Source: a virus. Taken from it: a stretch of 31,615 nt of DNA. Each line of letters begins with the position of its first letter. Within the stretch, counting starts at the first letter, position 1. Under the pieces are notes generated by a model. The model saw only the letters and a program-made list of their open reading frames with translations, was not told the origin of the DNA and ran no database searches. Positions 2 to 31,615 of the stretch are shown piece by piece. The DNA is taken from positions 1-31,615 of IMG/VR virus record IMGVR_UViG_3300030389_000568; one strand, written 5' to 3'. The position numbers and the translations under genes are program-made.

Positions 2-133
2 ACAGTTGCGGGAAGCGACATTGTATTAATAGGCGACGCTGATGACAGTAATAATTTAAAAAAAACAACCGCTCAAGATATTGCAAATCTTGGCGATTTT
101 GCTGATATTGGTTTAGTAATCGCTTTAGGTTAG
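2..133 (+). CDS. Tail fibre / virion N-terminal gene, 3' fragment (partial)
   Basis: Only the last 43 codons are present; the 5' end lies outside the window. The fragment reads in frame to a TAG at 131-133 and is homologous to the C-terminus of the complete gene at 28730-29179. Both contain DSNNLKKTTAQ and end in DIGLVIALG. DS-NNLKK-type segments are common in phage fibre proteins just before the variable tip. Several residues differ from the right-hand copy (for example AGSDIVLIGDADD against AGGDEILFGDIND), so this is a second allele and not an exact duplicate. Confidence 0.8.
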   Translation, partial: TVAGSDIVLIGDADDSNNLKKTTAQDIANLGDFADIGLVIALG

Positions 134-145
134 GAAGGATAATAA

Positions 146-475
146 ATGGCTAATACGTTTAAAAATGCTTATTTAGACATTACAAACTCTGCTCAAACTG
201 TTTATACATGCCCTGGCTCTACTACGGCAATAGTTCTAACTCTTAGAATTACAAACGTAGATGGATCAAACAATGACACTATTACAGCAGATGTAATTGA
301 CGCTTCATCTGGTAACTCTAGAATTGCTTTTACAATTTCTGTTCCAGCTGATACATCTCTTGAATTAGCCGGAGAATCAAAAATTGTTTTAGAAGCTGGA
401 GACAAAATTGATTTAACTGGTGGAAACTCGTCAGGAGATTTAGAAGCATTTGTTTCAGTCCTGCAAATAACTTAA
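146..475 (+). CDS. Conserved 109-aa virion/tail-tip protein, copy 1
   Basis: A small beta-rich protein with no signal peptide or membrane segment. It is full of Thr, Ser and hydrophobic alternation, as in a phage beta-sandwich, and begins MANTFKNAYLDITNS. It starts 12 bases after the fibre gene with an AGGA-type ribosome binding site. Eight bases separate it from the Gly-rich adhesin. The protein is identical at all 109 residues to that of 29192-29521, although the DNA differs at about 23 positions by my count, all synonymous. This shows strong selection on the protein. A structural or adaptor role in the tail tip is inferred from position. I cannot name a biochemical function. Confidence 0.75.
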   Translation: MANTFKNAYLDITNSAQTVYTCPGSTTAIVLTLRITNVDGSNNDTITADVIDASSGNSRIAFTISVPADTSLELAGESKIVLEAGDKIDLTGGNSSGDLEAFVSVLQIT

Positions 476-483
476 GGACTGCT

Positions 484-1371
484 ATGGCAAAGTTTGGATA
501 TATCGGAGCAAATGCTCCTACGCAATCAAGTTCAGCAAATACAGGCGTCTTTAATATGAAAGACATAAGAGAACTTGTTGATCAAGACAAATGGGCAAAA
601 CAAGGTTTTGATATTGAGTATCTTGTTCTTGCTGGCGGCGGAGGCGGCGGAAGAGACACTGGATCGGGAACTGGTTCCGGAGGCGGTGGAGGAGGTTATA
701 GAAACTCTTTTGCCTCAGAAACATCAGGAGCAAACTCATCAACAGAAACTCCATTTTTTGCTTTGCCAGGTACTTCATACACAGTTACTGTTGGAAGCGG
801 CGGAGGCGGCGGAACTGGTGTAGGTACTGGGGGCCGCGGTGGATCATCTGTCTTTGCAACTGTTTCAACTACTGGAGGCGGCGGAGGCGGATCAAACGGC
901 CAATCAGGGCAATCTGGTGGCTCTGGCGGTGGACAAGGTGGCGCTGGAACATCTAATGAAGGTTTTGCTGGAAATACAGGAACAGGCTCAACTGGAGCTG
1001 GCGGAGGAGGTGCTGGAGAAGATACTGGGTCTGGGCAGCAAAGAGGCTCCGATGGTTTAACTTCATCAATTACTGGCTCATCTGTAAAAAGAGCAGGTGG
1101 TGGTAATGGTGGAGATGATCTTTCTGGAAACAATAACTTTGGTGGTGGAAATGGAAACGCAGATGGTGGAGACACCAATAAAGGCGGTGGAGCTGGAGGA
1201 GGAAAATCTGGCGTTAATGGCGGAGTTGGTGGGTCTGGAATAGTTATTTTAAGATTTCCAAACACTGTTTCAATAAGTATTGGCTCAGGTTTATCAAGCT
1301 CAACGGGATCAGATGGATCAGATACAGTTGTTTCTTTTACTTCTGGCTCAGGAACGGTATCATTTTCGTAA
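484..1371 (+). CDS. Glycine-rich tail-fibre adhesin, copy 1
   Basis: A 295-aa protein. An N-terminal segment of about 40 residues (FGYI..APTQSSS.NTGVF...DI..L.D.DKW) is shared with the next-but-one gene and probably anchors it to the virion. The rest is glycine runs (YLVLAGGGGGG, GAGGGGAG) closed by GGSGIVILRFPN, the signature ending of phage Gly-rich domains thought to form polyglycine-sandwich adhesin tips. It ends with a Ser/Gly/Asp tail. The likely role is host receptor recognition. Its right-hand copy at 29530 differs at only about five residues. The long Pro-rich reading frame on the opposite strand is a by-product of GGN codons. Confidence 0.8.
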   Translation: MAKFGYIGANAPTQSSSANTGVFNMKDIRELVDQDKWAKQGFDIEYLVLAGGGGGGRDTGSGTGSGGGGGGYRNSFASETSGANSSTETPFFALPGTSYTVTVGSGGGGGTGVGTGGRGGSSVFATVSTTGGGGGGSNGQSGQSGGSGGGQGGAGTSNEGFAGNTGTGSTGAGGGGAGEDTGSGQQRGSDGLTSSITGSSVKRAGGGNGGDDLSGNNNFGGGNGNADGGDTNKGGGAGGGKSGVNGGVGGSGIVILRFPNTVSISIGSGLSSSTGSDGSDTVVSFTSGSGTVSFS

Positions 1372-1380
1372 AGGATTAAT

Positions 1381-1773
1381 ATGGCAAACTATGCATTATT
1401 AAATGAAAACAATGAAGTAATTAATGTTATAACAGGAATTGATGAAAATAATCTTGAAACACTTCCAGAAGGTTTTTCATCGTGGGAAGAGTTTTATGGT
1501 AATTTGCATAATTTAACTTGTAAAAGAACTTCAAGAAATACAGTAGAAAACACACACACTGACGGCGGCGTTGCTTTCAGAGGCAACTATGCAATTATTG
1601 GCGGTTTATATGATTCAAATAATGATGTTTTTTATTTGAAAAAACCTTATCCTAGTTGGACACTAAATGAATCAAATTGGAAATGGGAGCCTCCGGTTGC
1701 CTATCCAGATGATGAAGAAAATACTTATATTTGGAACGAATCAAATCAAGAATGGGAGTTATTAAATGAGTGA
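1381..1773 (+). CDS. WEPP-type tail-associated protein, copy 1
   Basis: A 130-aa protein beginning MANYALLNENNEVINVI, with CKRTS, RGNYAIIGGLYD, PSWTLNE, WEPPVAYPDDEE and a tryptophan-rich end. I recognise this as a small protein found beside tail fibres in marine cyanophages and pelagiphages, where its exact role (fibre accessory or chaperone) is unsettled. An aaaggatt site lies just before ATG. Its 3' end overlaps the next gene by 8 bases, so the two are probably translationally coupled. The copy at 30427 differs at about 13 of 130 residues, more than the neighbouring 109-aa protein. This suggests relaxed or diversifying selection. Confidence 0.7.
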   Translation: MANYALLNENNEVINVITGIDENNLETLPEGFSSWEEFYGNLHNLTCKRTSRNTVENTHTDGGVAFRGNYAIIGGLYDSNNDVFYLKKPYPSWTLNESNWKWEPPVAYPDDEENTYIWNESNQEWELLNE

Positions 1774-2401
1774 TTTTGGTTATATACCTTCAGCCCCAAC
1801 GCAAGCTGGTGGCAGCAATACCGGCGTTTTTAGTGCAGGTGATATTTACAATCTTGCTGATGAAGACAAATGGACAAACACTGATGGACTTGTATTGATT
1901 CAATATCAGTCTTTCACAGATGTCACAGAGGTTTTGTTTACAAGCATTAGAGAGTCTGAGTTTAGAGTTCACATGGCAGTTGCCAACAGAATTCAAGCAA
2001 TTAATTCATCACATAGATTTCAAGCAAGATTGTCAAATGATGGTGGATCATCTTATATAAGCACAAACTATGATTTTTCTTATGAGGGAAATCGTGATGA
2101 TGGTGATTCTTTAAGTGTTAGAACAACTGCTGGTGGCGATTTTGGTTATATAACTAATAATCAAAAGCTAGATCATCAAGCTGGTGCAATATGTTATTTT
2201 TATGATTTAGGCAATTCAGCTAAGTATTCAAAAACAACTTCGGAATCAACTTGGTTTGATAACAGTTCAAACGCTAGCGGGTTTGCTTATGGAATTGGCG
2301 TTCTTCATGTTGCTGAGACACATAATGCAATTAGATTTTCACAGTCTGGTGGAATGACGGGCTCTATTGCTCTTTATGGATTAAAGGAGAATTTATTTTG
2401 A
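1766..2401 (+). CDS. Putative receptor-binding / tail-tip protein with shared anchor, copy 1
   Basis: A 211-aa protein. Residues 1-36 (FGYIPSAPTQAGGSNTGVF..DI..L.DEDKW) repeat the N-terminal anchor of the Gly-rich adhesin at 484. The remainder is a beta-rich domain (LVLIQYQSF.D.TEV.F, RFQARLSNDGGSSYISTNYD), related in pattern to the next two genes. It overlaps the upstream gene by 8 bases and the downstream TTG start by 4. A tail-tip or fibre component is inferred from position and the shared anchor. The copy at 30812 differs at about ten residues. Confidence 0.65.
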   Translation: MSDFGYIPSAPTQAGGSNTGVFSAGDIYNLADEDKWTNTDGLVLIQYQSFTDVTEVLFTSIRESEFRVHMAVANRIQAINSSHRFQARLSNDGGSSYISTNYDFSYEGNRDDGDSLSVRTTAGGDFGYITNNQKLDHQAGAICYFYDLGNSAKYSKTTSESTWFDNSSNASGFAYGIGVLHVAETHNAIRFSQSGGMTGSIALYGLKENLF

Positions 2402-2928
2402 TCGGATCAGATAGATTAGTTTTATTAAATAGAACAGATATAACAACATCAACAAATCAAGTTTCAGTTACAAATGTATTTAATGCAGAATACGATCATT
2501 ATAAGATTGTTGTTGCAAACTTAACTAGCGTTGATACATCTGCATCACAAGTAAGTTTAAGATTTCATGATGGATCTTCAACTATCACTGCTTCTGATTA
2601 TCATTATTGTAGATTTAGACAATACAACAATCAAGCCGCTGATACCGGGCACAGTGCTGCATCAAGTATCATTCAATTCTTTTTCGGAGAAATTGATGGA
2701 AATACCGGTTTCAATACTGCTAATGTTGGTTATATTTTTAATCCATTTCAAACAGGATATACATTCGCAACCTCTGAAAGTGTTATGTCAGCATCAAGTC
2801 ATACAGCGAAAGGACATCTTGTTGCAGGTATGTTAAGACAAACAATATCAGTTACGGGCTATACACTAAACAATCCAGATAGAAATTATGATGAGGGAAC
2901 GATTTTGACTTATGGGATTGCAAACTAA
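2398..2928 (+). CDS. Tail-tip beta-sandwich protein (TTG start)
   Basis: A 176-aa protein. Its start is a TTG overlapping the TGA of the previous gene, with AAAGGAG 8 bases upstream. It shares a pattern with its neighbours: a leading LVLLNRT strand, then YDHYKIVVANL and SLRFHDGSS, typical of small beta-sandwich virion proteins in marine phages. No catalytic residues are evident. The stop overlaps the next ATG (TAATG). From here on the two contig ends are almost identical, so this gene marks the edge of the variable receptor-binding block. Confidence 0.6.
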   Translation: MIGSDRLVLLNRTDITTSTNQVSVTNVFNAEYDHYKIVVANLTSVDTSASQVSLRFHDGSSTITASDYHYCRFRQYNNQAADTGHSAASSIIQFFFGEIDGNTGFNTANVGYIFNPFQTGYTFATSESVMSASSHTAKGHLVAGMLRQTISVTGYTLNNPDRNYDEGTILTYGIAN

Positions 2929-7074: not shown

Positions 7075-7248
7075 ATGATGATTCAAGAATGGTTTTATCT
7101 ATTTCTTGTAATGTATGGATTCATTAGTTTGATATTTACATTTTGTTATATATCTTTATGGATCACAGAAAAAAGACTAGAGGATAAATCTGATTTTGTA
7201 ACTAGGTTACAAAAAGGAGAGATTCTCGACAAAAACAATATCTTCTGA
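7075..7248 (+). CDS. 57-aa single-pass membrane protein
   Basis: The start follows a perfect GGAGGTTGAA. It reads MMIQEWFYLFLVMYGFISLI, one long hydrophobic helix of about 23 residues (residues 6-29), then a charged cytoplasmic tail. Its TGA overlaps the next ATG (TGATG). Function is unknown; position in an early operon fits small membrane modulators. The ideal initiation element and tight coupling support it being real. Confidence 0.65.
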   Translation: MMIQEWFYLFLVMYGFISLIFTFCYISLWITEKRLEDKSDFVTRLQKGEILDKNNIF

Positions 7249-7421
7249 TGTGTATTTATTGTCAATCAAACAAAAGTATTGAAACACATAATACAAACTC
7301 AGGACTTTACACAATAGAAATTAAGGTTTGTAAAGATTGTTCTATAAGAAAAGGGTTTAGATCTGTTAATTGGTATAAAAACCATGAACACGAATTAGAC
7401 TTTGATTGGACAGATTTGTAA
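7248..7421 (+). CDS. 57-aa zinc-ribbon-like protein
   Basis: ATG overlaps the upstream stop. Two CxxC pairs, CIYC at the N-terminus and CKDC at about residues 28-31, form a small zinc ribbon. The acidic, aromatic C-terminus (HEHELDFDWTDL) ends in TAA that overlaps the next ATG (TAATG). Zinc-ribbon microproteins in phages often bind nucleic acid or host transcription proteins. The target here is not known. Confidence 0.65.
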   Translation: MCIYCQSNKSIETHNTNSGLYTIEIKVCKDCSIRKGFRSVNWYKNHEHELDFDWTDL

Positions 7422-9316: not shown

Positions 9317-9736
9317 ATGATAGAACTTTTATTAACATGTAGTTTATTATCTGATGTTCATTTTACGCTTAACAGTATAAACGACATTCCGCTAGTCGTT
9401 GAACAATGTCAGATAGTAGAGGAGGTGCAAGAGTGGATTCCTTTGGTTGTTCCACATTTCAAAGATGAAACTGCTCTTGCACTTACCGTAATTTATTGTG
9501 AAAGTTCAGGGTTTTCAAAAGCAACAGGAGTTAATAAAGATGGATCATACGATCAGGGTTTATTTCAATTCAATGAACGTACAGAACGTTGGTTAGAAAA
9601 AGATATATATAAACGAGATCTTGATATGTATGATCCTGAAACAAATGTAAAAGCAGCTAGATGGTTATCTTTTTATGATGGTTGGCATCATTGGAATAGT
9701 TCTAAACATTGTTGGGGAAGATATGAGTCTTACTAG
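9317..9736 (+). CDS. Lytic transglycosylase / lysozyme-like protein
   Basis: 139 aa. TVIYCESSGF places a catalytic-type Glu at 62, followed by GSYDQGLFQFN and a MYDPETNVKAARWL / GWHHWNSSKHCW end. This is the order of phage and actinobacterial SLT-type domains (glutamate in the first helix, then GLFQ, then N..AA..L). The first 30 residues contain a short hydrophobic run (LLLTCSLLSDV) that may be an export or anchor signal; no clear cleavage site. The gene is in the early region, away from the holin, so it may act in virion entry or superinfection, or be a second endolysin. No good RBS; start not certain. Confidence 0.75.
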   Translation: MIELLLTCSLLSDVHFTLNSINDIPLVVEQCQIVEEVQEWIPLVVPHFKDETALALTVIYCESSGFSKATGVNKDGSYDQGLFQFNERTERWLEKDIYKRDLDMYDPETNVKAARWLSFYDGWHHWNSSKHCWGRYESY

Positions 9737-9911
9737 ATATTTATGTTTAGAGTGCGATATGTTCAAGAAAAGAGGAACAATATTTAGAGGTTTTAGATTT
9801 GTTTGTTCGGATTGTGATTTTACTTATTGGAGAGAACAGAAAAAATGGTCTAATGATGGGAGAGTTTATTATGCAAATATCAGTACAGAAAGTACCGAAG
9901 AATGTTTATAG
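9723..9911 (+). CDS. 62-aa zinc-ribbon protein overlapping mom-like gene (Com-like)
   Basis: ATG 9723 lies 14 bases inside the transglycosylase gene, with GGGGAAG upstream. Two CxxC pairs, CLEC (8-11) and CSDC (28-31), form a zinc ribbon. An aromatic/basic segment and an acidic Ser/Thr tail follow. Its last 41 bases overlap the start of the Mom-like gene in another frame. In phage Mu, com encodes a 62-residue zinc finger that binds mom mRNA and turns on its translation, and the two genes also overlap. Size, cysteines, order and overlap match; direct sequence similarity to Mu Com is slight. I call it an analogue. Confidence 0.65.
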   Translation: MSLTRYLCLECDMFKKRGTIFRGFRFVCSDCDFTYWREQKKWSNDGRVYYANISTESTEECL

Positions 9912-10575
9912 TGATTGGATTTTAAACAAACACTACGCGAAAAGAATGTGTCAAGTATCACATGCTTTTGGTTTGTATATTGATGGAATAATATCAGGTG
10001 TTGTTACTTATGGAATGTCTCCATCCGCTACACTATCTGCATCAATAGCAGGAGAGGAATATAAATCTATTGTTTATGAACTTAACAGATTAATTACAGA
10101 AAATAACCTACCAAAAAACATTTTATCTACTTTTGTATCTAAAACATTTAGGTTATTACCAAAACCATTAATTATTGTTAGTTTCGCCGATCCAAACAGC
10201 GGCCATCATGGATATATTTATCAAGCAACTAATTTTATTTACACAGGAATTTCATCCAACACAACTCAATATCGTTATCCTGATGGAAAAGAGTTTCATT
10301 TTAAAAATTTTAGACATAAGAAACATAGTTCATCTTTTAAAAGACAACTAGGTAAACCTGATATAACTAATCAAGACATAATAGATTTTTATGATCTACA
10401 AAAAGTAAACATACAGGGTAAACATAGATATATATACATTATTGGATCTAAAACAGAAAAAAAGAACATTATGAAAAATTTTCGTTTAGAGATACTAAAA
10501 TATCCAAAAGGAGAAAATAAGAATTACGAGGTTGATTTTGACAAAATGGATAAACAACTAAATTTATTCGGATAG
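9871..10575 (+). CDS. mom: Mom-like adenine modification protein (GNAT fold)
   Basis: 234 aa from ATG 9871, where GGGAGAG is 6 bases upstream; ATG 9855 is a weaker alternative. Mu Mom is of similar length. Motifs in order: KHYAKR (20-25), FGLYIDGIISGVVTYG (33-48), YELNRL (69-74), VSFADP (103-108) and GHHGYIYQATNFIYTG (111-126), then a RYIYIIG segment and a K/R..L.....YPK end. Mom converts adenine in DNA to an N6-carbamoylmethyl-type form and shields phage DNA from restriction. The gene probably does so here. It has a short upstream partner and may be translationally controlled. Confidence 0.75.
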   Translation: MQISVQKVPKNVYSDWILNKHYAKRMCQVSHAFGLYIDGIISGVVTYGMSPSATLSASIAGEEYKSIVYELNRLITENNLPKNILSTFVSKTFRLLPKPLIIVSFADPNSGHHGYIYQATNFIYTGISSNTTQYRYPDGKEFHFKNFRHKKHSSSFKRQLGKPDITNQDIIDFYDLQKVNIQGKHRYIYIIGSKTEKKNIMKNFRLEILKYPKGENKNYEVDFDKMDKQLNLFG

Positions 10576-10585
10576 GGAGGTTGAA

Positions 10586-10834
10586 ATGTCGGATAGAAGT
10601 AAAATTAGAGAAATATTGATAAGAAATCAAGATACTTGGGTATGTAGTTCTGTGTTCTTACGTGAACACTTTATAAAGGACTATGCACAAAGGATCTCAG
10701 AGATTAAAACTGAAAAAGTAAATGGTTTTAATGTTGATATACAGGGCAAGACTTGTGATATACACAATCACAAACAACACATGTATAAATTATCAATAAT
10801 CGCACCAAATTATGAACGCAGTACCTTATTCTGA
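10586..10834 (+). CDS. Helix-turn-helix protein, 82 aa
   Basis: ATG follows a perfect GGAGGTTGAA. The sequence reads KIREILIRNQDTWVCSSVFL, then YAQRISEIK and C-terminal TCDIHNHKQHMYKL. This is the pattern of a small actinophage HTH domain (L..G.WV......L...I...A.RI..L), usually finished with C..H.H and a YrL strand. It probably binds DNA and regulates transcription. The next gene begins inside its last codons in another frame (23 bases). Confidence 0.6.
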   Translation: MSDRSKIREILIRNQDTWVCSSVFLREHFIKDYAQRISEIKTEKVNGFNVDIQGKTCDIHNHKQHMYKLSIIAPNYERSTLF

Positions 10835-11610: not shown

Positions 11611-11649
11611 ATGGACTGTTGTGGACAGGGCTGTTGCTCAGGAGGTTAA
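11611..11649 (+). CDS. 12-aa Cys-rich leader ORF (MDCCGQGCCSGG)
   Basis: GGAGG at 11601-11605 is ideally placed for ATG 11611, which opens only 12 codons. The product contains two Cys pairs separated by a short Gly/Gln. It ends at TAA 11647-11649, inside the coding region of the large secreted protein in another frame, and an AGGAGG lies just before this stop. It may be a leader peptide that couples or regulates the big gene, or the sign of a one-base indel at the true start. Confidence 0.4.
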   Translation: MDCCGQGCCSGG

Positions 11650-13772
11650 GTAGATTAGTATTTGTATTATGTTTGATATGCCCACAAATAGCTTATGCAG
11701 ATCACGTTCCTACACAACCACCATATAATCAATCAATAGAATTAGATACATCCACAGGAGATTTAACAATAGGAATATATTCTTCTGATGGTTTTGAAGA
11801 TAGTCCACCTGAAAAATATACAATATTTTTTACTATTGGAGATAACTCTATAAACACAACTACATCATTTTGTGTTTCTACATCTTTTGGACACGGTAAT
11901 AATTTATCGTGGCAGTACCATGTTTTTTCTTTAGAAGATTTACAGTATTATTTTGAAAATCCTTATGGAACTTTTAGAACACAGATAAGATCTGATAATG
12001 ATACAGATAACAGTTATAGTACATTAACAACCGAACAAACAATAAATATTCCAAATCAACTTCCATTCGTAAATTTAGGAAATTGGTCTGCTCCGTCTAG
12101 TACTTGTAACGATACAAGCACAACTACAACTACAACTACAACTTCTTCAACAACTACAACTTCTTCAACAACTACAACTTCTTCAACAACTACAACAAGT
12201 TCTACTACCACAACTACAACTACTACCTTGCCTCCTACTACTACAACTTCTTCAACTACTACTACAACTTCGACTACTACTACAACTACAACGTTGCCTC
12301 CAACAGAAGAAGAACTAAATTTTATTGAAACAGGTATTTATGAAACTAACGAAGAAAGATCTAATAGAGAAGAAAATGAAAGAGTTGTTGCTGCACAGAA
12401 TTGGGAAAGAGATAAAAATGAACAAGAAACAGGATATTGGGAACTAGATTCAGAAAGAAGAGAAAGAGAACAAAGAGAAAAAGAACTAGAAGAAACAAAA
12501 ATTCGTAATGAACAAAGATTAAATAATGAGGAGAACTATGGCTGTTACATGACAGATGAACAAATAGAACGCGGAGATTGTATAATAGAAATAGATGAAG
12601 AAGAATACGATACCGAAGAAGAGTTTTTTGAGGATGATTCTATGGTATCTGAATTGGAGTTGGATGATGAAGATAAAGATTTGGAAGATGAATTTGAAGA
12701 ACTTACAGAAGAAGAGGTCATTGAACTTGAAAAACAAATGGAGATCAATGCTAAAATACTTGAACTTGAAGAAGAGATTGAAATACTTGAATTTGAAACT
12801 GAAGAGGATTTTGAGGAATTTGTCGAAACAATACTCGAAGTAGAAGAGTTTTTAGAAGAATTTGACGATTTTGAGGAAGAAATCATCATAATTGAAGTTC
12901 CTGAAGATATTGAAATAATTATTGAAGATGAGGAAATTCAGGAAGAAATAGTCATAGTTGAGGATATAGAAGAGGAGATCCTAGAAGTAATACTTCCGGA
13001 AGAGATAACAAAAGAAGAATTTAAAGAGATTAAAGAAAAAGATATAGAGGATCTTACTGAAGAAGAACAAGAAATAATAGTTGATGTTGTAGAAGAAATC
13101 ATTGAAGAAGTCGTCAATATTAAGGTTTTAGAAGAAGAAATAGAGATACTTGAAGAAGAAGAGTTAGAAGAACTAACAGTAGAAGAACAAGAGATCTACG
13201 AAGAAGAGTTAGAAGAAAAAGTAGAAGAGTTTGTTGAAACATTGGAAACTGAGGAACTTGTAACAGTTGTTGAACAGGTATCAGAGATTGGAGTTCAATC
13301 ATTAGAATCCGCTGATATACAAACAATAAAGGTTGTTCAGGCAGTAGTTACTGAGATCACAGACACAGAAACAGTTGAAGAATTGACAGAGGAACAAGTA
13401 GAAACAGTCGCAGAGGTTTTAGGTTTTGAAGAAACTGAAGATGTAAAAATAATATCAGAGATCTTGGAGAATGAAGATAATATTGTTGTGAAAGAAGCAG
13501 TTGAAGAATATGTTGAAAGAAGTATAGAGAACGGAAAAGATTCTTTGATGCCATACACTTTGGCAGATAGTATCGTGGAAGTTCAAGTAGAACAATTCTT
13601 GGAAAATCCTATTCAAAGTTTGGTAAATGTAGATATATCCGATATAACTATTAAGGATATTAATACAGGAATGACACAGGATCAGAGAGAGAAATCTCAG
13701 GAGGTTGTGATTCCCACAATTTTGGTAAGAATAGCATCTATGTTTAGTATGGCTTACAGGAGAGAGATTTGA
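11619..13772 (+). CDS. Large secreted Thr-rich / Glu-rich protein
   Basis: 717 aa from TTG 11619; the start is uncertain since the nearby ideal site serves ATG 11611 in another frame. A signal peptide is clear: RR charged start, LVFVLCLICPQI core and AYA|D cleavage near residue 27. A 140-aa globular beta-like part follows, then a Thr/Ser tract with TLPPT breaks (about 166-228), and a long stretch dominated by Glu, Ile and Val (about 300-620). That is a highly acidic, helix-prone domain. Similar Thr-linkers occur in secreted actinobacterial proteins. It probably acts at or outside the cell envelope, though the role is unknown. A membrane protein overlaps its stop. Confidence 0.65.
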   Translation: MWTGLLLRRLSRLVFVLCLICPQIAYADHVPTQPPYNQSIELDTSTGDLTIGIYSSDGFEDSPPEKYTIFFTIGDNSINTTTSFCVSTSFGHGNNLSWQYHVFSLEDLQYYFENPYGTFRTQIRSDNDTDNSYSTLTTEQTINIPNQLPFVNLGNWSAPSSTCNDTSTTTTTTTTSSTTTTSSTTTTSSTTTTSSTTTTTTTTLPPTTTTSSTTTTTSTTTTTTTLPPTEEELNFIETGIYETNEERSNREENERVVAAQNWERDKNEQETGYWELDSERREREQREKELEETKIRNEQRLNNEENYGCYMTDEQIERGDCIIEIDEEEYDTEEEFFEDDSMVSELELDDEDKDLEDEFEELTEEEVIELEKQMEINAKILELEEEIEILEFETEEDFEEFVETILEVEEFLEEFDDFEEEIIIIEVPEDIEIIIEDEEIQEEIVIVEDIEEEILEVILPEEITKEEFKEIKEKDIEDLTEEEQEIIVDVVEEIIEEVVNIKVLEEEIEILEEEELEELTVEEQEIYEEELEEKVEEFVETLETEELVTVVEQVSEIGVQSLESADIQTIKVVQAVVTEITDTETVEELTEEQVETVAEVLGFEETEDVKIISEILENEDNIVVKEAVEEYVERSIENGKDSLMPYTLADSIVEVQVEQFLENPIQSLVNVDISDITIKDINTGMTQDQREKSQEVVIPTILVRIASMFSMAYRREI
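12141..12194 (+). repeat. Three perfect 18-bp tandem repeats
   Basis: The unit ACTTCTTCAACAACTACA occurs three times in a row without change and encodes TSSTTT. It lies in a longer ACA/ACT microsatellite that builds the Thr tract. Copy number could vary by slippage, changing the linker length by six residues per unit. Confidence 0.9.
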
Positions 13773-28729: not shown

Positions 28730-29179
28730 ATGGCAGCAGGTGGATGGTTTGATTGGACTACCGGAGATCTTGTAACCGAATCAAGATTTCAAGACATACA
28801 AGATAGTTTAGTTTTTATATTCGCATCAGAAAGTGCAGCTAATACCGCTTTAACAAATAAAGTTGAAGGCACCGTGTTTTTCGACACGGGGGAAAATTTA
28901 TTGAAGGCTTGGAGTGGTACGGCGTGGATAACAGCAGAAAAAGGAGATATTGAGGGTATTACTACATCTTCCACGTCAGGATTAGACGGCGGTGCAACAA
29001 CAGGTACTCCTAGTTTAAGTGTAAAACCAAACTCAGCTACTTCAGGTACTATCGCAGGTGGAGATGAAATTTTGTTTGGAGATATAAATGACAGTAATAA
29101 CCTTAAAAAAACAACAGCACAAGAAATTGCAAATCTTGGCGATTTCGCCGACATTGGTTTGGTAATCGCTTTAGGTTAG
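28730..29179 (+). CDS. Tail fibre N-terminal / adaptor protein
   Basis: 149 aa with AAAGGAG. WFDWTTGDLVTESRFQDIQD at the start, then GTVFFDTGENLLKAWSGTAW and GDIEGITTSSTSGLDGG, followed by DSNNLKKTTAQEIANL. These segments are frequent in phage tail fibre connectors, where the C-terminal sections join the adhesin. It precedes the conserved 109-aa protein and the Gly-rich adhesin. A fragment of a second allele lies at the window start. A CCGTGT-ACACGG hairpin lies in the coding region at 28872-28889. Confidence 0.7.
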   Translation: MAAGGWFDWTTGDLVTESRFQDIQDSLVFIFASESAANTALTNKVEGTVFFDTGENLLKAWSGTAWITAEKGDIEGITTSSTSGLDGGATTGTPSLSVKPNSATSGTIAGGDEILFGDINDSNNLKKTTAQEIANLGDFADIGLVIALG

Positions 29180-29191
29180 AAAGGATAATTA

Positions 29192-29521
29192 ATGGCTAAC
29201 ACGTTTAAAAATGCTTATTTAGACATAACAAACTCTGCTCAAACTGTTTATACATGTCCAGGCTCTACTACAGCAATAGTTCTAACTCTTAGAATTACAA
29301 ATGTAGATGGATCAAACAATGACACTATTACAGCAGATGTAATTGACGCATCGTCTGGAAATTCAAGAATTGCTTTCACAATCTCTGTTCCAGCTGATAC
29401 ATCTCTTGAACTAGCTGGAGAATCAAAAATTGTTTTAGAAGCTGGAGACAAAATTGATCTTACCGGTGGAAACTCGTCTGGCGATTTAGAAGCATTTGTT
29501 TCAGTCTTACAAATAACCTAA
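29192..29521 (+). CDS. Conserved 109-aa virion/tail-tip protein, copy 2
   Basis: The amino-acid sequence is identical to the protein of 146-475. DNA differs by about 23 synonymous changes, including Leu codons changed at two positions. It lies 12 bases after the complete fibre adaptor gene and 8 bases before the Gly-rich adhesin. The total absence of amino-acid change at this synonymous distance argues for strong functional constraint. Confidence 0.75.
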   Translation: MANTFKNAYLDITNSAQTVYTCPGSTTAIVLTLRITNVDGSNNDTITADVIDASSGNSRIAFTISVPADTSLELAGESKIVLEAGDKIDLTGGNSSGDLEAFVSVLQIT

Positions 29522-29529
29522 GGACTTTT

Positions 29530-30417
29530 ATGGCGAAGTTTGGATATATCGGAGCAAATGCTCCAACTCAATCAAGTTCATCAAACACAGGTGTATTTAA
29601 TATGAAAGACATAAGAGAACTTGTAGATCAAGACAAATGGGCAAAACAAGGTTTTGACATTGAATATCTTGTTCTTGCTGGAGGCGGAGGCGGAGGGCGA
29701 GACACGGGCTCTGGCACAGGCTCCGGAGGTGGTGCAGGAGGTTATAGAAATTCTTTCGCGTCAGAAACGTCAGGAGCAAATTCTTCAACAGAAACTCCAT
29801 TTTTCGCTTTACCATCTACTTCATATACAGTTACTGTTGGAAGTGGCGGTGGCGGTGGCACAGGTGTTGGAACAGGAGGTCGTGGGGGATCGTCTGTTTT
29901 CGCAACTGTTTCAACTACCGGAGGCGGCGGAGGCGGATCAAACGGCCAATCAGGACAATCAGGTGGCTCGGGTGGCGGTCAGGGTGGTGCAGGCACATCA
30001 AACGAGGGTTTCGCAGGAAACACAGGAACAGGCTCAACAGGAGCTGGCGGTGGTGGTGCTGGCGAAGATACAGGCTCAGGCCAACAGAGAGGATCTGATG
30101 GTTTGACTTCCTCAATAACTGGCTCTGCAGTAAAAAGAGCAGGCGGAGGAAATGGTGGCGATGATCTATCTGGCAATAATAACTTTGGTGGTGGAAATGG
30201 AAACGCTGATGGCGGAGATACTAACAAAGGTGGCGGAGCCGGAGGAGGAAAATCCGGAGTTAATGGTGGAGTTGGTGGATCTGGAATAGTGATTCTTAGA
30301 TTTCCAAACACTGTTTCAATAACTATTGGATCAGGATTATCTAGTTCAACCGGATCAGATGGATCAGATACAGTTGTTTCATTTACTTCTGGCTCTGGAA
30401 CGGTATCATTTTCATAG
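29530..30417 (+). CDS. Glycine-rich tail-fibre adhesin, copy 2
   Basis: 295 aa, same length and order as 484-1371: N-terminal FGYI..APTQ anchor, glycine-run adhesin, GGSGIVILRFPN closure. I see five substitutions (A/S near 19, G/A in the first glycine run, G/S before TSYTV, S/A in TGS.VKRAG, S/T in SI.IGSG). Changes fall partly in glycine loops that could contact receptors. Opposite-strand Pro-rich frames are artefacts. Confidence 0.8.
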   Translation: MAKFGYIGANAPTQSSSSNTGVFNMKDIRELVDQDKWAKQGFDIEYLVLAGGGGGGRDTGSGTGSGGGAGGYRNSFASETSGANSSTETPFFALPSTSYTVTVGSGGGGGTGVGTGGRGGSSVFATVSTTGGGGGGSNGQSGQSGGSGGGQGGAGTSNEGFAGNTGTGSTGAGGGGAGEDTGSGQQRGSDGLTSSITGSAVKRAGGGNGGDDLSGNNNFGGGNGNADGGDTNKGGGAGGGKSGVNGGVGGSGIVILRFPNTVSITIGSGLSSSTGSDGSDTVVSFTSGSGTVSFS

Positions 30418-30426
30418 GAGGATTAA

Positions 30427-30819
30427 ATGGCAAATTATGCATTACTTAATGAAAACAATGAAGTAATCAACGTTATAACAGGGATTGATGAAAATAATCT
30501 TGAAACACTTCCGGAGGGTTTTTCTTCATGGGAAGAGTTTTACGGCGATTTACATAAGCTTACTTGTAAAAGAACTTCAAGAAATACCGTAGAAAACACA
30601 CATGTTGAGGGAGGTACAGCTTTTAGAGGTAATTATGCAATTATTGGTGGATTATATGATCCAAACAATGATGTTTTCTATTTAAAACAACCTTTTTCAA
30701 GTTGGACACTAAATAAATCTAATTGGAAATGGGAAGCTCCTGTTGCATATCCGGATGACGAAGAAAACAATTATATTTGGAATGAATCTAATCAAGAATG
30801 GGAGTTATTTAATGAGTGA
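30427..30819 (+). CDS. WEPP-type tail-associated protein, copy 2
   Basis: 130 aa with AGGAGGATTA before ATG, a better site than copy 1. About 13 residues differ from 1381-1773, several as pairs (THTDGGVAF against THVEGGTAF; KKPYPSW against KQPFSSW; WEPP becomes WEAP). It overlaps the next gene by 8 bases as in copy 1. Confidence 0.7.
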   Translation: MANYALLNENNEVINVITGIDENNLETLPEGFSSWEEFYGDLHKLTCKRTSRNTVENTHVEGGTAFRGNYAIIGGLYDPNNDVFYLKQPFSSWTLNKSNWKWEAPVAYPDDEENNYIWNESNQEWELFNE

Positions 30820-31447
30820 TTTTGGTTATATACCATCAGCACCAACTCAAGCCGGAGGAAGTAACGCTGGAGTCTTTAATGCTAGCGATGTTTATAATCT
30901 TGCTGATGAAGATAAATGGACAAATACTGATGGACTTGTATTAATACAATATCAATCTTTTACAGATGTTACAGAAGTTTTTTTCACAAACATTAGAGAG
31001 TCTGAGTTTCGTGTTCACATGGCAGTTGCTAACAGAATTCAAGCAATTAATTCATCACATAGATTTCAAGCAAGATTGTCAAATGATGGTGGATCTTCGT
31101 ATATAAGCACAAACTATGACTTCTCTTATGAGGGAAATCGTGATGATGGGGATTCTTTAAGTGTTAGAACAACTGCTGGCGGCGATTTTGGTTATATAAC
31201 TAATAATCAAAAATTAGATCATCAAGCAGGTGCAATTTGTTATTTTTATGATCTAGGCAATTCAGCTAAGTTTTCAAAAACAACTTCTGAATCTACATGG
31301 TTTGATAACAGTTCAAACGCTAGCGGGTTTGTTTTTGGCATTGGTGTTCTACATGTAGCTGAAGTACATAATGCAATTAGATTTTCACAATCAGGCGGAA
31401 TGACGGGCTCTATTGCTCTTTATGGATTAAAGGAGAATTTATTTTGA
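30812..31447 (+). CDS. Putative receptor-binding / tail-tip protein with shared anchor, copy 2
   Basis: 211 aa from ATG 30812; an in-frame upstream ATG at 30743 would run over the previous gene and is ignored. The N-terminal anchor (FGYIPSAPTQAGGSN.GVF..DVYNLADEDKW) and beta-rich body match 1766-2401 with about ten differences, mostly conservative (L/F, Y/F, S/N). The overlap with the next gene (TTGA) is kept. Confidence 0.65.
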   Translation: MSDFGYIPSAPTQAGGSNAGVFNASDVYNLADEDKWTNTDGLVLIQYQSFTDVTEVFFTNIRESEFRVHMAVANRIQAINSSHRFQARLSNDGGSSYISTNYDFSYEGNRDDGDSLSVRTTAGGDFGYITNNQKLDHQAGAICYFYDLGNSAKFSKTTSESTWFDNSSNASGFVFGIGVLHVAEVHNAIRFSQSGGMTGSIALYGLKENLF

Positions 31448-31615
31448 TTGGATCAGATAGATTAGTTTTATTAAATAGAACAGATATAACAACATCAACA
31501 AATCAAGTTTCAGTTACAAATGTATTTAATGCAGAATACGATCATTATAAGATTGTTGTTGCAAACTTAACTAGCGTTGATACATCTGCATCACAAGTAA
31601 GTTTAAGATTCCATG
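31444..31615 (+). CDS. Tail-tip beta-sandwich protein, copy 2 (cut by window end)
   Basis: The first 57 codons are present. The TTG start overlaps the previous stop and AAAGGAG lies upstream, exactly as in 2398-2928. The residues seen are identical to copy 1 (IGSDRLVLLNRTD, then YDHYKIVVANL, SLRFH). The gene continues past the end of the window. Confidence 0.7.
   Translation, partial: MIGSDRLVLLNRTDITTSTNQVSVTNVFNAEYDHYKIVVANLTSVDTSASQVSLRFH

Follow-up and report, generated by a model that had tools for sequence, protein, structure and literature searches.

In a 31,615-nt stretch of DNA from an uncultured virus (IMG/VR record IMGVR_UViG_3300030389_000568; hereafter the window), a gene for a Mom-type DNA modification enzyme begins inside the end of a small ORF encoding a double-CxxC protein. 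The gene order is lysozyme-like gene, slot, mom and an 82-aa gene, the small ORF occupying the slot in this phage:

9317-9736, + strand: SLT transglycosylase/lysozyme-like gene, the constant neighbor that borders the slot upstream (Pfam SLT, 2.8e-9)
9723-9911, + strand: 62-aa putative zinc-knuckle protein (CxxC-x16-CxxC), 'com-like' by position only; cysteines invariant in 10 distinct relatives
9858-9864, + strand: Shine-Dalgarno-like GGGAGAG of mom, inside the small ORF (anti-SD duplex, predicted unpaired)
9871-9911, + strand: overlap of the small ORF and mom frames, 41 nt
9871-10575, + strand: Mom, DNA-adenine modification enzyme of the GNAT-like acyltransferase family (Pfam, PHROG and PDB matches, motifs)
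10586-10834, + strand: 82-aa gene, function unassigned, fixed downstream border of the slot (syntenic in 13/14 loci)

The phage is AT-rich (G+C 0.29-0.41) and carries ordinary tailed-phage head genes (portal, terminase and major head protein); no close cultured relative of it was found. The two ends of the window (42-2569 and 29088-31615) form a direct repeat of ~2.5 kb with 89% identity. Since the resulting unit length, ~29.05 kb, is near that of sister contigs (29.5-30.7 kb), this may reflect an over-wrapped circular genome with a strain variant; alternatively, it may be a true tandem duplication of tail-end genes. Downstream of the locus lies a 717-aa ORF (11619-13772) that contains a Thr/Ser repeat and a very long tract rich in Glu. 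Close relatives match this ORF only in part, and it had no PHROG match.

The ORF at 9871-10575 is, judging from its homologs, a true Mom gene. Its 234-aa product was matched by Pfam Mom PF25680 with an E-value of 7.4e-38 (130.7 bits, against a curated cut-off of 27.1), by PHROG 1384, 'Mom-like DNA modification protein' (5.8e-56, 190.7 bits), and by the solved structure of Mu Mom (8bv8; 5e-9 using phmmer on the PDB). The KHY, ELNR and S-ADxxxGxxGxxYQA / GxxYQASNF motifs align with Mu Mom, with K20 H21 Y22, E70-R73, S104 A106 D107, Y117 Q118 A119 and N121 invariant between the two proteins, so the main Mom motifs that an earlier, sequence-only reading of this DNA had noticed here were borne out. 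The ATG at 9871 is the best candidate for the start, because it is found in all small-ORF relatives while the ATG 15 nt upstream is absent in L017 and L018. Mom protects DNA from cleavage by many restriction enzymes. The same enzyme family includes Mom-like proteins of Listeria, Proteus, Bacillus and Acinetobacter, as well as those of many uncultured viral contigs. Some Mom relatives (L099, L100, L102, L104, L113 and L114) have much longer frames (411-424 codons) and may be fusions similar to those of Mom with an endonuclease that have been reported from jumbo phages (PMC7824862). A literature search for Mom in pelagiphages found no paper.

The ORF at 9723-9911 encodes exactly 62 residues, MSLTRYLCLECDMFKKRGTIFRGFRFVCSDCDFTYWREQKKWSNDGRVYYANISTESTEECL, with cysteine pairs at C8xxC11 and C28xxC31, and runs into mom over 41 nt in a different frame (29 nt in most relatives), just as had been described from the letters alone. 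It occurs in 16 IMG/VR contigs, with mom directly downstream in 16/16. These comprise 10 distinct versions, all of which keep the four cysteines, together with C-D, RGT and FR residues. The frame contains no stops in the 10 distinct relatives, while the two shifted frames hold 10 and 60, and pN/pS in the part outside the overlap is 0.38, as compared to 1.42 and 0.92 in the shifted frames. By this pattern of substitution the small ORF is a real coding gene under purifying selection, and the 62-aa frame is kept in relatives within the clade, which on this point favors the sequence-only reading. That it is no gene at all, a suspicion that the lack of a family match in any library might raise, is next to inconceivable given ten distinct open frames with invariant cysteines.

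No Pfam, PHROG or NCBIfam family matched the small protein above cut-off. A search for distant relatives gave none in 50,697 phage records and none that could be confirmed among genome contigs, and looser zinc-knuckle DNA patterns returned chance matches in short frames, with no genuine copies elsewhere; in these data the small ORF appears confined to one viral clade. The AlphaFold2 model of the protein (mean pLDDT 47) was unusable. Its C-terminus (WSNDGRVYYANISTEST, window 9837-9905) resembles the middle of a WW domain, with an E-value of 3.2e-4 in one member; we dismissed this WW-like segment (GRVYYANISTEST) as a coincidence, since that best Pfam WW E-value is below cut-off and the match is shortened and half inside the overlap. 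Another small ORF, at 7248-7421, encodes a 57-aa protein that also has two CxxC pairs and for which no family match rose above chance.

The mom gene of phage Mu is under tight translational control by Com, the product of the gene that precedes it. In the Mu record com spans 35768-35956 (62 aa) and mom is annotated from 35877; counting from the GUG that is the mom start in Mu (PMC6483171), read off the sequence at L033:1408, the two overlap by 50 nt. The window has the same layout: a 62-aa CxxC-x16-CxxC gene comes first and its 3' end lies over the start of a true Mom gene, on the same strand and with the same order and size. The x16 spacing is that of Mu Com, and Chuche Com has x15. Such an exact match in cysteine spacing and gene position would be expected if the small protein were a true Com that shares ancestry with Mu Com but has diverged beyond sequence recognition, yet the sequence comparisons spoke against it. 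Pfam Zn_ribbon_Com PF10122 was silent at E 10 for all 10 small-ORF members, as it was in a family search of the window (Mu Com itself: 2.7e-9), and hhalign gave the family a probability of 1.6% when compared to Com. When scored against a profile made from the Com proteins of Mu, Chuche, JD024, UMP151, Mcat3 and B3, the small protein fell behind 245 of 297 cysteine-fixed shuffles, and two motifs common to these six Coms, LL[AF]-[KR]A and I[KR]CPRC, are absent from it. We consider such hidden homology highly improbable. Of the com-mom-like pair proposed from the sequence, therefore, order, size, cysteine spacing and overlap stand, while kinship to Com does not: the small protein looks com-mom by layout but, at the level of sequence, is not a detectable Com.

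In sequence terms, the closest zinc knuckle lies elsewhere. Among 177,635 PDB sequences, the best match of the small protein was the anti-sigma-G factor Gin (E 0.015), with the pattern C..CD..K.RG.I...KFIC.DC and a score of 18.5 bits, higher than that of any of 299 cysteine-fixed shuffles. The zinc finger of Gin is of the treble-clef type (PMC5890618). The Bacillus subtilis protein, Gin/CsfB (5N7Y, PF10764), has zinc-knuckle residues beyond the cysteines in common with the small protein (C..CD..K.RG....FIC.DC), with 15 residues between the CxxC pairs against 16, but has no known relation to DNA modification. The small protein could then be a Gin/CsfB-like treble-clef knuckle binding a host or phage protein, of the anti-sigma type or for host takeover, in which case it would stand beside mom only through synteny and the overlap would be routine packing of a compact genome. 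Overlap alone is indeed ordinary in the window, since 22/46 adjacent gene pairs overlap, the small ORF/mom overlap being among the longest. However, an E-value of 0.015 that is the best of 177,635 sequences falls short of any confident threshold, and PF10764 matched 1/10 small-ORF members, at 0.28 and below cut-off, leaving the window's protein unmatched. Moreover, Gin is known from spore formers. We take this weak likeness as a lead rather than an assignment, and the explanation built on it as unlikely, albeit the least unlikely of the alternatives.

The mom start was said in the sequence-only reading to have a strong internal GGGAGAG site, such that any regulator would have to act through RNA structure or competition. 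The site is there: its anti-SD duplex is computed at -7.3 kcal/mol against a median of -5.8 for 35 window genes, which is ordinary to good, and the region is predicted mostly unpaired (0.82), with the start codon partly paired (0.13 unpaired). GGGAG precedes the ATG at 9871, and relatives keep varied forms of it (GGGAGG, AGGAG and GGAAG). In Mu, Com binds a hairpin beside a translation-inhibition structure in which the GUG start of mom is enclosed (PMC6483171). Folding tests found no hairpin burying the mom start here, and 9 relatives likewise showed no strong structure, although these tests have modest power on AT-rich segments of 50-90 nt. The mfe z for the start region was +1.16 here, compared to -1.84 in Mu, -2.17 in Chuche and -1.46 in JD024, where the start codon has unpaired probabilities of 0.00, 0.00 and 0.06, respectively. 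The Com-bearing controls UMP151, Mcat3 and B3 also gave z near 0 over the 50-nt segment, so the folding result is suggestive, not decisive. A consensus over the junction reached only -2.6 kcal/mol, with no conserved structure at the mom start. The Com RNA motif (GAG(N)2CC or CC(N)2-3GAG), found at -15 in Mu, is absent from -160 to +80 of the window's mom. Synonymous constraint just upstream of mom is not raised either (0.36 at -58 to -16 vs 0.35 and 0.28 further up). With no hairpin, no Com motif and an open SD, a Mu-type RNA switch at this mom start is not supported by the modelling.

The neighborhood of the pair varies between relatives. The SLT gene, which overlaps the small ORF by 14 nt, is syntenic in 14/14 loci compared, including loci that lack the small ORF. 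Among the latter, L004-L007 have the same flanking genes and a mom 82-86% identical to that of the window, with the small ORF absent. The slot is filled by a PHROG 757-type DNA methyltransferase in L004 (1485-2126), L005 and L007 (2340-2999), an assignment tested on L004 and extended to the other two by sequence resemblance. In L006 (2337-3029) it is filled by an N6/N4 methyltransferase unrelated to the PHROG 757-type one. L006 carries a further, PHROG 111 methyltransferase at 912-1430. The Mom tree places L004-L007 together in a single subclade (support 100/98) inside the small-ORF clade, from which it follows that the small ORF was replaced. No copy was found elsewhere in these contigs, which may be incomplete. 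Unlike the Mu system, then, the window's has a first cistron that seems dispensable in a nested subclade. Throughout the clade, mom begins either immediately downstream of the preceding cistron or within the end of it, so that coupling to the upstream gene would be the common feature. The constant neighborhood with mom may be mere synteny in one lineage, as the lysozyme gene is equally constant.

Beyond the clade, different genes precede mom in the viral contigs surveyed, and zinc-knuckle ORFs are rare among them: one was found upstream of mom in 3/47 non-redundant loci, in none of them overlapping. A wide association between zinc knuckles and Mom was rejected as well (3/47 upstream vs 1/42 downstream). 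Mom relatives thus mostly lack the small ORF, and it has been lost in close relatives whose Mom is 82-86% identical, which on this point counts against the sequence-only reading.

True Com precedes mom in Mu and JD024, and precedes dam/methyltransferase genes in B3, UMP151 (both Pseudomonas) and Chuche (Escherichia). The latter three resemble the window in having a zinc-ribbon ORF that runs into the start of a DNA-modification gene, and in the exchangeability of the partner. The roles are reversed, however: those phages keep Com and vary the enzyme downstream of it, while the window's clade keeps Mom and varies the cistron upstream. Three of the Com ORFs that we encountered are unannotated: one in Pseudomonas phage JD024 (L130:1201-1419), overlapping mom; one in Pseudomonas phage UMP151 (L131:1201-1392), overlapping a DNA adenine methylase gene; and one in Moraxella phage Mcat3 (L132:1201-1446), overlapping a gene of unknown product.

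By analogy with these systems, the small protein might be a convergent counterpart of Com, which would bind RNA at the overlap and thereby switch on, or lower, the translation of mom by some means other than opening a start-codon hairpin. Its length, position, cysteine spacing and overlap would fit, as would the strict linkage to mom in all 16 contigs and the fact that known Coms too sit on exchangeable modification genes, be it mom or dam/methyltransferase. Against this stand the lack of Com similarity past the cysteines, the missing inhibition hairpin and Com motif, the unremarkable synonymous constraint, the open SD and the loss of the small ORF with mom kept in L004-L007. On balance we find it doubtful, and slightly less probable than a Gin-like protein binder.

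The reading we prefer, tentatively and at a probability of about 0.45, is that the small ORF is a zinc-knuckle cistron coupled to mom in an exchangeable modification slot, where it would play an accessory or a regulatory part; the pair resembles com-mom without belonging to that family. Under this reading, a small uncultured tailed phage would express its Mom-type gene for DNA-adenine modification from the second place in a tightly overlapping pair, behind a clade-specific cistron housed between the lysozyme-like gene and mom. We infer that mom output would be set mainly by ordinary initiation and by translational coupling with the upstream cistron. The zinc-knuckle protein would probably serve the modification module as an accessory factor or regulator, through binding of nucleic acid or protein, and not as the opener of a Mu-type RNA lock.

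What is new here, as far as homology can tell, is a zinc-knuckle family in the position of Com. The presence of a non-Com zinc-knuckle gene in some phages and of methyltransferases in their sisters shows that the cistron in front of mom can be exchanged in the course of evolution. Near-identical mom genes with the small ORF either present or replaced offer a natural comparison between a regulatory overlap and plain translational coupling. Were the convergent-switch explanation to be true, an unrelated zinc-knuckle protein would have taken the place of Com, and an uncultured phage clade would have evolved a com-mom switch of its own.
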